64,000 nt of DNA from Candidatus Vondammii sp. HM_W22 (GTDB taxonomy: Bacteria; Pseudomonadota; Gammaproteobacteria; Chromatiales; Chromatiaceae). The stretch is from contig NZ_CP099567.1 of NCBI RefSeq assembly GCF_022530855.2, positions 1,426,001-1,490,000 of the forward strand, given 5' to 3'. Position 1 is the first letter of the stretch, and each line of letters starts with the position of its first letter. Both the position numbers and the translations under genes were made by a program. Below, one piece after another: positions 25,335-29,147 of this stretch. The notes under the pieces are model-generated. The model was given only the letters and a program-made list of their open reading frames with translations. It made no database searches and was not told the origin of the DNA.

Positions 25335-25710
25335 GGGGGCGACATGGTTTCGACGTGGGTGATGAAACCTGAGGTGCATGCCGAGGATACAGATTCCCTC
25401 GTAAATAATTCTGTAACACTATAGTTGCCAACGACGACAACTACGCTCTCGCCGCTTAATAACCGGTAGAAGCCGTCTGACTGGAGCCGTTCTTGTGCGT
25501 CCAGAGTCCTTCGGGGCGTTCAGGCGTCACAGCTCACAAGATCGCGAAGAAACATGTCCGGGGTGGATTCGCTAAAACTTAACCGGGACCGCCGTATGCA
25601 CGCCCTGTCTGTCGGGCAGTAGCCGGTTAAACACAATCGACAGCTCTAAGCATGTAGAGCCAAAGGCAGAGTACTTGCGGACGCGGGTTCGATTCCCGCC
25701 GCCTCCACCA
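25335..25710 (+). ncRNA. ssrA: tmRNA
   Basis: The 5' end GGGGGCGACATGG pairs with CGCCTCC before the encoded ACCA at the 3' end, giving a seven-pair acceptor stem with one G-U. The T arm GGGTTCGATTCCC is present. The tag frame is GCC at 25427 followed by codons for ANDDNYALAA in total, then TAA at 25457-25459. The YALAA ending is the usual protease-recognition tail. The size, 376 nt, and the one-piece layout are normal for gammaproteobacteria. The 3' end of tmRNA is a common integration site for elements, and a prophage remnant lies just downstream. Confidence 0.96.
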
Positions 25711-25771: not shown

Positions 25772-26216
25772 CAGCCACTATCTTGTAGCCGTTCAGTGAT
25801 GCCATTTTTTATTTTGGGAAGAAATTAAGTAGGTATTAACGAGTCAGCGCAGGATAACTAAGCGCTTAGGTTAGTCATTTACTTCCCCCAGTGCTATAAT
25901 AACCCCGGCACCGCGCCAGGATGGCAAAACCAGAATGGAAGCTCGCCCCGCACCACCGACCTGCAACCCCAAAGCCATGACGTAACCCATTCCCAGTTGC
26001 CTGCTTGCCGACGATGCCGTCATGATGTGAGACGACATATAGATAGCGAAAACCGGGATATGATCCAATACGATTGGATTAGGTGGGATGATAAGGAAAA
26101 TCAGAGGGTTAGAGGGCATTTAATCGTTAGGTAAAAAATGAGAAAATGCGACTCATCAAGCCCCAAAGGCTTTAATAAAGTAAAACCGTCAAGATAAACG
26201 CGACGAGAACAGCTTA
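25772..26216. other. Non-coding stretch between ssrA terminator and prophage remnant
   Basis: No gene supported. A short reverse-strand frame at 25871-26119 has no recognisable domain or ribosome-binding site. Confidence 0.5.
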
Positions 26217-26744
26217 CTATTTTGCTTCTTCGCGGTCCTGTAGTGAGCGAAGTGTTTCATATAGACGCTCAACTCCAGATTGTTCAAGCCCATGGAGTGT
26301 CACTAGTTCGATGATCAGTGCAGCCCATATAGCTGCTGGGTTTGAGCTGGGATCATCTTTTGTCATATCGAAAGCAACCTGGGAGGCTGTCCTGAACTTC
26401 TCTGCTTGGCGCTCCCACTCCTTTTGCTCGCCAGATGAGCGTTCCGTGGGAGGTTCAGGTTCTGGTGTGGGCTGTTGAGCCATAATCATGGCGCCACTCC
26501 CTGTTAGTAACCAGTTGGCATTGCAATCGAGGCGTGCGAGCGCTGCAATAACCTGGCTTCCAGGGGTATGTCCACCTGATTCATAACGCTGCCAGGACTT
26601 CTTCCCAATACCCAGCAAACCATCCATCTCTGCTTGAGATACCCCAAAATGCTCCCGAAGCTTCTTTAATCGGTCAAAAAACCTATTATTTAGGGTATTA
26701 CTTTCTTCGTCCAAAGCGTTACCCTTTTTAATTTTCTTATTCAT
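26217..26744 (-). CDS. Phage-type HTH repressor (XRE/CI-like)
   Basis: About 175 residues from the ATG at 26744, with GGAAG eight bases upstream. The helix-turn-helix lies at about residues 20-75 (FFDRLKKLREHFGVSQAEMD, then GIGKKSWQRYESGGHTPGSQ and NWLLTGSGAM), a pattern typical of phage repressors with a variable C-terminal part; no LexA-type protease motif is seen. It is divergent from a Ner-like gene, and five copies of a 13-base motif sit over its start and the facing promoter. It probably kept the Mu-like prophage silent. The frame is intact although the phage genes downstream of ner are broken, so it could still confer immunity. Confidence 0.8.
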   Translation of the reverse strand: MNKKIKKGNALDEESNTLNNRFFDRLKKLREHFGVSQAEMDGLLGIGKKSWQRYESGGHTPGSQVIAALARLDCNANWLLTGSGAMIMAQQPTPEPEPPTERSSGEQKEWERQAEKFRTASQVAFDMTKDDPSSNPAAIWAALIIELVTLHGLEQSGVERLYETLRSLQDREEAK

Positions 26745-26842
26745 AGGGTAACACTTCCCGTTATTATCTCTATAAAACAAATAGTTATATTCATCTTTAA
26801 CAATATGCTGCGTAATTAGGGTAATACTTAAAGCGATACCCT
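26692..26842. promoter_or_regulatory. Operator array for the prophage repressor: five AGGGTAnnnCTTT sites
   Basis: Sites: AGGGTATTACTTT (26692-26704, plus), AGGGTAACGCTTT (26713-26725, minus), AGGGTAACACTTC (26745-26757, plus), AGGGTAATACTTA (26818-26830, plus), AGGGTATCGCTTT (26830-26842, minus). The first two and the last two form inverted pairs. The middle site lies at the repressor ribosome-binding site, and the last pair overlaps the upstream part of a probable ner promoter with TATACT just after it. Binding by the repressor or Ner is inferred. Confidence 0.7.
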
Positions 26843-26888
26843 ATATACTGGTTGACACGCCTCATTTTTCATGGCTATCATGCACCGC

Positions 26889-27188
26889 ATGAAGAATAAA
26901 ATTCCTACAAAAAAATACCCCCGGGAGGATTGGCATCCAGCAGATATCAAAGCCGCCCTGGAAAAAGCCGGTTGGTCACTATCTCGGCTCTCTATCCATC
27001 ACGGCTACGCCAGCCGCAACACACTAAAGCATGCGCTACAGCGTAGTTGGCCCAAGGGTCAACGGCTGATTGCCCAGGCAATCGGTGTTCCACCCGAAAA
27101 AATCTGGCCTTCCCGATATAGAAAACATTCACCTGATGCCTCCAAAAAGTCTAACCCAAAACAGAGAAGAAGGCGCGTTGAAGGATAA
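26889..27188 (+). CDS. ner: Ner-like DNA-binding protein of a Mu-like prophage
   Basis: About 99 residues. PREDWHPADIKAALEKAGWS, HHGYASRNTLKHALQRSWPK and PPEKIWPSRYRKH match the Ner/Nlp family closely in order and spacing (WH.AD, G...NTL..AL...WPKG, IWPSRY). Ner represses early and repressor promoters of Mu-like phages. ATGs also occur at 26871 and 26880; 26889 gives the family's usual short N-terminus. It is divergent from the repressor with the operator array in between. Confidence 0.85.
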   Translation: MKNKIPTKKYPREDWHPADIKAALEKAGWSLSRLSIHHGYASRNTLKHALQRSWPKGQRLIAQAIGVPPEKIWPSRYRKHSPDASKKSNPKQRRRRVEG

Positions 27189-27278: not shown

Positions 27279-27767
27279 ATGAGCTTTCCAAGAAAACGGC
27301 GTAACTGGAAGCGAGTGCGTCCGAGCAATCTTCGGGATGCCTTTCGTCTCTGCAAAGAGTATGCAAGAGAGAAGAAAAACCTAAGCGTTGAACGGATCGC
27401 CGATCTGATGGGTGTGTCGGTAGACAGCCTCTATAAGTGGTTATCCAACGGCAAAATGCCTGCCTCGATGATCCAGGGCTACGAACATTTCTGCGGTATT
27501 CATCTTGTCAGCGATTACCTGGCCTCCAGCGCAAACAGACTGGTGATTGATATCCCTACTGGTCGAGCCGTTTCGGCGATGGAAACCAATGAGCTGCAGG
27601 CCGTTTTTTCAGATGCCTTCGGCATGCTGATCCGTTACTACAACGGTGAAGCCGATCAGCAGGTGACAGAGGATAACCTGACCTGCATTTTAGCCGGCTT
27701 GGTCTGGCACCGTGAGAATGTACGAAAGACGGAACAACCAGAACTCGAATTCGGAGTTAAGGAGTGA
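27279..27767 (+). CDS. Uncharacterised prophage protein with N-terminal HTH
   Basis: 162 residues. RNWKRVRPSNLRDAFRLCKE leads into a helix-turn-helix (LSVERIADLMGVSVDSLYKW, about residues 36-60). The rest is helical with no motif I recognise. Small early DNA-binding proteins of this layout are common between ner and the A gene in Mu-like phages. A GGAGAT lies about seven bases before the ATG. Its stop overlaps the GTG of the next gene by four bases, so the two are probably co-translated. Confidence 0.65.
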   Translation: MSFPRKRRNWKRVRPSNLRDAFRLCKEYAREKKNLSVERIADLMGVSVDSLYKWLSNGKMPASMIQGYEHFCGIHLVSDYLASSANRLVIDIPTGRAVSAMETNELQAVFSDAFGMLIRYYNGEADQQVTEDNLTCILAGLVWHRENVRKTEQPELEFGVKE

Positions 27768-28345
27768 ACAAGAGATCTCCTGTTCACTCCTTGAGTAATC
27801 CAGATACCACGCTAGTTGAGATTGCCGAGGCGCTTGGTCTTAGTAAAAAAAGCGTATCAACTCGCGCCAAACGCGCAAGCTGGCCATACCGGGAAAAGGC
27901 GGCCCTGGGAGGTCAAAGACGTCTCTACTCTCTAACATCACTCCCCGATGAGATGGCAGTCAGCCTGGTGATGCTACGCATTAAGCATCATGAGCCAAGC
28001 CCGGCAGAGATCCAGAAGGCGGCGAAACGCCTGTCGAACAATGCAAAGAACCGCATTCTACGCCAAGCCGCTTCAGAGATTGCCACTAAACCTCTCGCAG
28101 AGCTGCCTGAACCCGTAGAAACCCCTCTGGGCACAGCGTTTTCTGGAAGAGATCCCTGCCGAATTTAAAAACTACGGTCGCATGGGCAAGAACGCGATCC
28201 GAGCAATCAAGCCTTTCGTGCGCCGTACCATGGATGGCCTCTGGCCGATGGATGTTGTGACTGTCGATGGACACATTTTTAAAGCCTATGTCCGTCATCC
28301 GGCTACCGGTGCCCGTTTCCGACCGGAGGTCACTACTGAGTTTTT
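27764..28345 (+). pseudogene. MuA-type transposase, N-terminal half only, frameshifted
   Basis: The first frame (27764-28168) starts with an HTH of the Mu A N-terminal type (TLVEIAEALGLSKKSVSTRA, WPYREKAALGGQRRLYSLTS, PDEMAVSLVML). A large deletion then joins it, out of frame, to sequence from the core domain: FLEEIPAEFKNYGRMGKNAI, MDGLWPMDVVTVDGHIFKAY (first catalytic Asp) and ATGARFRPEVTT. The family match ends at about 28345. The second Asp, the Glu and the C-terminal domain are absent, so the phage cannot transpose. Confidence 0.8.
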
Positions 28346-28475: not shown

Positions 28476-29147
28476 CTAGCATGGAACCTTTGTAACTGCT
28501 CTGAGGCAGTAGAGCCCATCAGAAAGAACTGTGCTGCCAGCACACAGACTGGATCTGGCATATCGAACGATCTCCGCACTCTGAAAACCGCGGAGCCGAC
28601 GCAGTTGGATCTTCATTGGCCTGCCGTCCTGCGTCGTCTCAACAGCTGCCACGAAAGGAATTTTATTACGAGACCCTCGCCCACGCTTTCCCGGTTTCTC
28701 ACCACCAATACAGGCATCATCCATCTCGATGCGACCAGCCAGTTTTTTTTGACTCTGACGTTCCATTATCACCTGCATCAGTTTGTGCTTGAGCTTCCAG
28801 GCTGTATTGTAGTTCACACCAATTTCACGGGACAGTTGCAAGGCAGAAGTACTTTTTTTACGCTGAGTCAACAAATAGATGGCCAGAAACCACTTCTTCA
28901 ACGGCAGCTTGGTGCCGTGAAAGATGGTGCCAGCAATCAGGGAGCTTTGGTGGTGGCATTTATGGCACTGATATATCTTACGGCTTTTGAGTTCACAACC
29001 TGTTGTGTTGCCACACTCAGGACATATATATCCGGTAGGCCAACGCAGTCGGTACAATGCTTGTTGACATTGCTCTTCAGAACCATACTTTTCAATAAAT
29101 TCGTGCAAACTAGGACCTTTTTGAAACTGCACTGTATTTTTTGTCAT
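28476..29147 (-). pseudogene. IS1595-family transposase, C-terminus truncated
   Basis: 223 residues. The N-terminal zinc ribbon is CPECGNTTGCELKSRKIYQC with CHKCHHQ (C-x2-C pairs), followed by the ISXO2-like DDE domain: LTQRKKSTSALQLSREIGVN, RIEMDDACIGGEKPGKRGRG (first catalytic Asp) and VLSDGLYCLRAV (second Asp). Relatives are about 300 residues and end with a further Asn/Glu region; here the frame stops soon after the second Asp, in VTKVPC. Probably inactive. It sits inside the prophage remnant. Confidence 0.8.

Follow-up and report, generated by a model that had tools for sequence, protein, structure and literature searches.

What do five short repeats do where an XRE-type repressor gene and a ner gene diverge, and which protein would bind them? 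The 12-mer AGGGTAnnnCTT occurs five times in the window (the whole 64-kb stretch of DNA that was analysed), all within 151 bp between these two genes (26692–26842; at 26692+, 26714−, 26745+, 26818+ and 26831−). When the window was shuffled, the mean was 0.31 copies per shuffle with a maximum of 3, and five copies were reached in 0 of 100 shuffles. The original prediction had counted five copies of a 13-mer; the five sites are present when the 12-mer is used, but the full 13-mer AGGGTAnnnCTTT has only three matches in the window (26692+, 26713− and 26830−), all inside the same 151 bp, and the two remaining sites deviate from it at the last base (C and A). Its division into two inverted pairs and one single site was correct. 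In the place names of a spacing template described below, site A (AGGGTATTACTTT, 26692..26704, plus strand) and site B (AGGGTAACGCTTT, 26713..26725, minus strand) fall within the repressor coding region if the start is the ATG at 26744, and site D (AGGGTAACACTTC, 26745..26757, plus strand) abuts this ATG (26744–26742) and overlaps a possible Shine–Dalgarno stretch of the repressor gene, as read from the sequence; the placement of three sites in or at the 5' region of this gene was likewise as predicted. Site E (AGGGTAATACTTA, 26818..26830, plus strand) forms a tight inverted pair with an additional site, E2 (AGGGTATCGCTTT, 26830..26842, minus strand).

The surrounding genes are those of a Mu-like switch, as had been proposed, in the order repressor leftwards, ner rightwards, CII-like gene and then a Mu-type transposase in two pieces. 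The left end of the element (TGTGAGACG, 26026..26034, plus strand) was judged by the start of identity with a second copy in the same genome (L024). The repressor (175 aa, 26217..26744, minus strand) matched HTH_19, HTH_31 and HTH_3 above their cut-offs, and the domain search found no match to the S24 peptidase domain or to the Mu-type HTH_Tnp_Mu_1 (PF02316) in this protein. A fold predicted from 15 aligned relatives has a confident five-helix HTH at about residues 17–81, with low confidence for the N-terminal leader and medium confidence for the C-terminal part, which is helical; the fold predicted from the lone sequence was poor (pLDDT 54). The ner gene (26871..27188, plus strand; translation may instead begin later, at the ATG at 26889) matched HTH_35 (9.5e-26) and phrog_769 (1e-31), and is followed by the gene of a CII-like regulator (phrog_101, 27279..27767, plus strand) and by the transposase remains (27764..28336, plus strand), both fragments of which are matched by phrog_310. 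The predicted break in the transposase is real: 413 bp that the second copy has are missing at 28130/28131, and identity with that copy stops at 28336. The switch had also been called intact, which holds as far as the repressor, whose reading frame is open. A tmRNA gene lies at 25335–25710, with the left end of the element about 316 bp beyond it, and a fragment of an IS1595-family transposase, with its zinc ribbon and a portion of its DDE domain, lies at 28476–29147, past the cut end of the remnant.

We further searched the whole 3.35-Mb genome and found 34 matches to AGGGTAnnnCTT, compared with 17 for the same pattern read backwards. They comprise the window array (5), an identical array at 927319–927469 (5), a pair at 744062–744086 (2) and 22 others, none of which stands in an array, and there is no excess of the 12-mer elsewhere in the host genome. 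In other words, the motif is clustered, but it is not restricted to this spot, since a second identical array and a relic pair exist. The second array belongs to remnant L024, which differs from the window copy at 12 of 2105 bases and carries a 697-aa transposase frame with a Mu-transpos_C match, an AAA ATPase (AAA_22), DUF3164 and GemA, and then an IS-type integrase frame; the MuB-type ATPase and GemA downstream are found only there and are missing from the truncated window copy. The pair at 744062–744086 is the E/E2 pair, retained in a relic of 69 bp (L027:8020-8088; G000:C1 744,019-744,087) that is 87% identical to window positions 26775–26843 and has no repressor or ner match in the genome searches. 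A second Mu-like lineage is present in three copies (L028–L030, near 600,020, 1,853,759 and 2,876,646); its CI-like repressor is of a different kind, its Ner is 56–59% identical, and two of its copies showed no array beyond shuffles (13 and 56 of 200). The genome has a single match to the Mu portal (PF06074, 2,889,313), about 13 kb beyond the third copy (2,876,646), which may be the most complete one.

These copies bear on the possibility that the array is decaying and no longer functions in its host, with sites intact only through recent insertion. We regard this as a serious possibility, if somewhat short of an even chance. Both remnants are truncated, a pair of sites persists even in the 69-bp fragment, and the two copies differ so little that intact sites alone are no proof of selection. 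However, the repressor frames are open in both copies and 98% identical, and this view concerns present use in the host, so that it is compatible with an operator explanation of what the sites were. Because both remnants keep the repressor reading frame and an identical array, either could silence the other, or perhaps a superinfecting relative, which would be the immunity that the original prediction had thought possible.

Searches with the single repressor sequence found only its own genome among 55 genomes, and no relative in the viral_contigs or genome_contigs sets; in the phage collection they returned eight records with weak HTH matches covering at most 38% of the query. Repressor-like matches were found in 12 of 398 genomes, and a related repressor in 7 of 369 genomes of the class (own genome included in both counts). 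The best relative (G088, locus L066) has the same gene order of repressor, ner and CII-like gene. The 801 bp that surround its switch contain seven matches to GGGTAnnnCTT with at most two mismatches, and five of these sites (1, 2, 1, 0 and 0 mismatches), an E2 site among them, keep the order and orientations of the window array with spacings of 21-32-71-13, compared with 21-32-73-12 in the window. Judged by eye, the N-terminal leaders of the two repressors share little except the residues encoded by the sites. An HTH alignment of the window repressor and this relative (A3) then retrieved 36 loci in genome_contigs and none in viral_contigs; one of them, L069 (Gammaproteobacteria bacterium isolate BWSM_72), lies on the same contig as L066. 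A convergent motif pair in 27 viral-contig stretches was taken as unrelated: each stretch has just the pair near its match, none has a relative of the repressor, Ner or transposase (tblastn, E 1e-3), and in five the CII-like protein is weakly matched (E about 3e-4 to 4e-4).

To look for arrays de novo, repeated 11-mers upstream of the HTH were scored against 200 shuffles. A ner homolog stands alongside the repressor in 20 of the 36 loci, and arrays that no shuffle equalled were found in 17 of these 20 and in the window but in none of the 16 loci without ner, where 19 to 191 of 200 shuffles did as well. The three ner-linked failures were L075, L086 and L097 (7, 11 and 2 of 200, respectively); the best seed of L069 was a different repeat (ATCAAAATGGG) and that of L084 was T-rich. 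Moreover, 12 of 16 viral contigs picked by Ner alone carried arrays at 0/200 shuffles, the other four being L014 (1), L007 (26), L009 (197) and L011 (45); two of 18 loci (L022 and L023) and L029, a near copy of L028, were excluded from the viral-contig and template tests. The units are lineage-specific sequences of 11 bp that occur at similar places and in similar orientations in related Mu-like prophages, and in most relatives B and C, and likewise A and D, are direct repeats.

From these arrays, a common layout of oriented units, 11–13 bp long, was read. With ner to the right, A(+) is followed by B(−) about 20 bp on, C(−) at about 33, D(+) at 52–53 and E(−) at about 123, with E 102–106 bp from B and C often present. 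A five-site template beat all 100 shuffles in 31 of 48 switches, although its offsets were read by eye and many of the tested loci are the loci of origin. A four-site template (A-B-D-E), picked after the five-site results were known, beat all 200 shuffles in 32 of 48 switches, with the near-identical L024 not counted, and 16 fell short; 3 of 200 control stretches, drawn only from loci of at least 3000 bases, passed it. When the 49 regions were grouped by DNA similarity into 28 clusters, 17 clusters had a passing member. In the 32 passing switches the A–D distance was 52.4 bp (sd 0.7) and the B–E distance 104.1 bp (sd 1.1), within search ranges of 49–55 and 94–112, respectively; these distances correspond to about 5 and 10 helical turns at 10.5 bp per turn. 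In a template-free check with L024, L028, L030 and Mu left out, 42 of 45 loci had four or more de novo sites; among these 42, same-orientation pairs were 51–54 bp apart in 28 and 102–106 bp apart in 30, compared with maxima of 14 and 13, respectively, in 2000 random placements.

Eight named phages were fetched after the offsets had been noted, namely YPCBV-1, B23, ST405-OXA48phi1.1, SuMu, MuM16-2, 1.028.O, JBD30 and D3112. Seven of them reached 0/100 with the five-site template (ST405-OXA48phi1.1, 10/100) and all eight reached 0/200 with the four-site template. Of 500 random geometries, between 1 and 30 equalled their four-site scores, and in weaker loci, too, such geometries score well. Coliphage Mu fails both templates (76/100 and 138/200 shuffles, respectively). 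The window agrees with the layout in its A, B and D sites, lacks C, has E at the right place but flipped, and has E2 in addition. Under the strict four-site template it scored 24 of 33 (2/200 shuffles), a value equalled by 48 of 500 random geometries; with E flipped, a variant picked after seeing the window, it scored 27 of 33 (0/500 shuffles). The corresponding values for L066 were 2/200 and 0/500. The window is thus a divergent member of the layout and not its type case.

We consider that the five sites at this divergent switch are probably operators for the XRE-type repressor that the prophage itself encodes, and give this reading, drawn from sequence comparisons, a probability of roughly 70%. 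A competing view is that Ner binds the sites, shutting the repressor promoter early in the lytic cycle and damping the early promoter, Pe. That arrays appear only beside ner in the 36-locus set is in line with a role for Ner. The two proteins were compared by co-variation over 17 loci. The similarity of the units correlated with the identity of the repressor HTH (r = 0.29, P = 0.005) and with that of Ner (r = 0.22, P = 0.017), P values that are lenient because the loci are related to one another. With Ner fixed, the partial correlation between units and repressor HTH was 0.21 (P = 0.015), whereas with the repressor fixed that between units and Ner was not significant (0.09, P = 0.16). For this comparison L075, L084, L086 and L097 of the 20 ner-linked loci were excluded, orientations were flipped by rule in some loci and by name in L087, and the sites of L069 were entered by hand from the L066 motif comparison because its best de novo seed was the other repeat mentioned above.

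Individual pairs of loci point the same way in part. L088 and L089 have Ner proteins 91% identical and repressor HTHs 50% identical, yet their units are unlike (0.30); judging from the sequences, this pair is a natural module exchange. Similarly, L072/L077 (repressor HTH 75%, units 0.90) and L090/L092 (76%, 0.75) share repressor HTH and units, although their Ner proteins are only 59% and 49% identical. However, counter-pairs exist. L079/L085 share near-identical units (0.93) and a Ner 82% identical with repressors at 54%, and L083/L090 have Ner at 91% with a unit similarity of 0.67, both of which speak for Ner, while L083/L088 (repressor 69%, units 0.36) and L082/L089 (repressor 83%, units just 0.49) have related repressors without like units. 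Overall, the unit sequence appears to track the repressor HTH somewhat better than it tracks Ner, and binding by Ner instead is in our view unlikely.

The units themselves show no dyad symmetry: none of the 17 consensuses beat its shuffles, the best being equalled in 213 of 1000, and the idea that each unit is a full palindromic operator in quasi-dyad form was dropped. This absence would be unusual for lambda-like repressors and counts against the repressor-operator reading, as does the location of E, which lies upstream of the −35 box and not over it. The putative early promoter Pe (TTGACA-18-TATCAT, 26852..26881, plus strand) has 11 of 12 consensus bases and is the best forward promoter of the stretch, which has three promoter-like sites compared with a shuffle mean of 1.7. 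Nine bases separate E2 from its −35 box, and across the switches the distance between the start of E and the best −35 box was 22–24 or 32–35 bp in 24 of 36 rows, a tally in which the own copy counts twice. With the predicted −10 box at 26876–26881, transcription would begin close to the ATG at 26889, and for this reason ner may be leaderless, starting at its seventh codon. The promoter search of the switch stretches gave no convincing candidate for the repressor promoter; for A, B and D to be downstream operators, we infer, it would have to be situated between E and D.

For the repressor-operator reading, a mechanism can be outlined. Repressor bound at E/E2, just upstream of the −35 box of Pe, would turn off ner and the early operon, and repressor bound at A, B and D would limit its own synthesis by occlusion or roadblock, the places of these three sites being consistent with the roadblock autoregulation that the original prediction had suggested. 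The spacing near whole turns (A–D 5, B–E 10) suggests that the bound protomers lie on one face of the DNA, where they might form a single wrapped or looped complex over both promoters.

We also compared the position of the repressor start codon relative to the array. Among seven annotated phages, whose annotation may be wrong, the start is beside or in A in JBD30 and SuMu, in D in YPCBV-1 and ST405-OXA48phi1.1, and upstream of D in D3112, MuM16-2 and 1.028.O; the annotated cI gene of D3112 contains its template sites A, B and D. The frames of L072 and L080 start beside A and are closed immediately before that start, from which it follows that the array is untranslated there, and in L069 the sole ATG/GTG/TTG ahead of the HTH is upstream of three sites. 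These observations suggest that the operators are translated in some lineages only and that the repressor start shifts relative to the array. The constancy of the spacing despite this movement argues more for a role in DNA than for one in translation. It thereby weakens the idea that the sites act in RNA, with A–B and E–E2 hairpins attenuating or blocking repressor translation, for which it can be said that A and B are inverted and within the repressor transcript and that D overlaps a possible ribosome-binding site. However, E and E2 stand across the intergenic stretch and so are probably outside the repressor message, and the direct repeats B/C and A/D of most relatives also argue against hairpins. 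We consider an action in RNA very improbable.

The arrangement may be compared with known switches. In coliphage Mu, as here, a divergent repressor and ner at the left end of a transposable phage have repeated sites between them (in NC_000929, repressor 339-863 on the minus strand and ner 1099-1326 on the plus strand), and O1–O3 of Mu consist of multiple asymmetric repressor units. Unlike in Mu, the window repressor lacks a match to the Mu-type HTH, and Mu misses the shared geometry. D3112 and JBD30 (Casadabanvirus) have a divergent XRE-type repressor and ner-like gene and fit the four-site template (0/200), but their repressors carry an S24 peptidase domain, which that of the window lacks, and their site sequences differ. 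Footprints in the D3112 repressor study of Salmon et al. 2000 (Virology 272:85-97) and in older Mu operator papers may already show part of the layout. In the familiar lambda CI/Cro switch, an autoregulated repressor of XRE fold acts at several operators that lie between divergent promoters. The window likewise has an XRE-type HTH repressor with several sites between divergent genes; it differs in the lack of dyad symmetry, in the number, spacing and place of the sites, in having Ner instead of Cro and in the lack of an S24 domain. Asymmetric sites are also described for mycobacteriophage repressors (PMC9283540). In those phages the sites are spread over the phage genome as stoperators, whereas the window sites cluster at the switch.

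The operator region of Mu doubles as a transpositional enhancer, 'O/E', according to PMC3820752. By analogy, the sites here might be shared with the transposase as an enhancer, with their spacing serving transpososome assembly more than repression. A fixed spacing suits nucleoprotein assembly, and the layout occurs in transposable phages. However, Mu itself does not fit the template, and the window repressor has no HTH_Tnp_Mu_1 match, so that a shared recognition domain is not evident; we consider an enhancer role improbable. In the portions of the literature available, including PMC9936078, PMC3544612, PMC3564109 and PMC3820752, no description of the array or of its spacing was found. As a variation on repressor operators, what appears to be new is the conserved layout under changing unit sequence.

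Returning to the repressor-operator reading, its extension to the whole group stands at about even odds. This extension holds that a single operator scaffold, constant in places and orientations and spaced at nearly whole helical turns, is common to transposable phages whose repressors are of XRE type, and that it outlasts sequence turnover, change of the C-terminal domain and movement of the start codon, with the reading frame sliding over the scaffold and a looped or wrapped complex spanning both promoters. If so, some lineages translate their operators into a variable, disordered N-terminal leader. Operator sequence varies with the repressor, which makes the operators of transposable phages besides Mu difficult to predict; given a fixed geometry, they could be located from sequence alone, also in JBD30 and D3112. 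The system would be a clear example of a repressor and its operators evolving together while the layout stays constant, and it raises the question of why the spacing is kept while the letters change. The shared spacing may be a common layout for the dormancy of Mu-like viruses.
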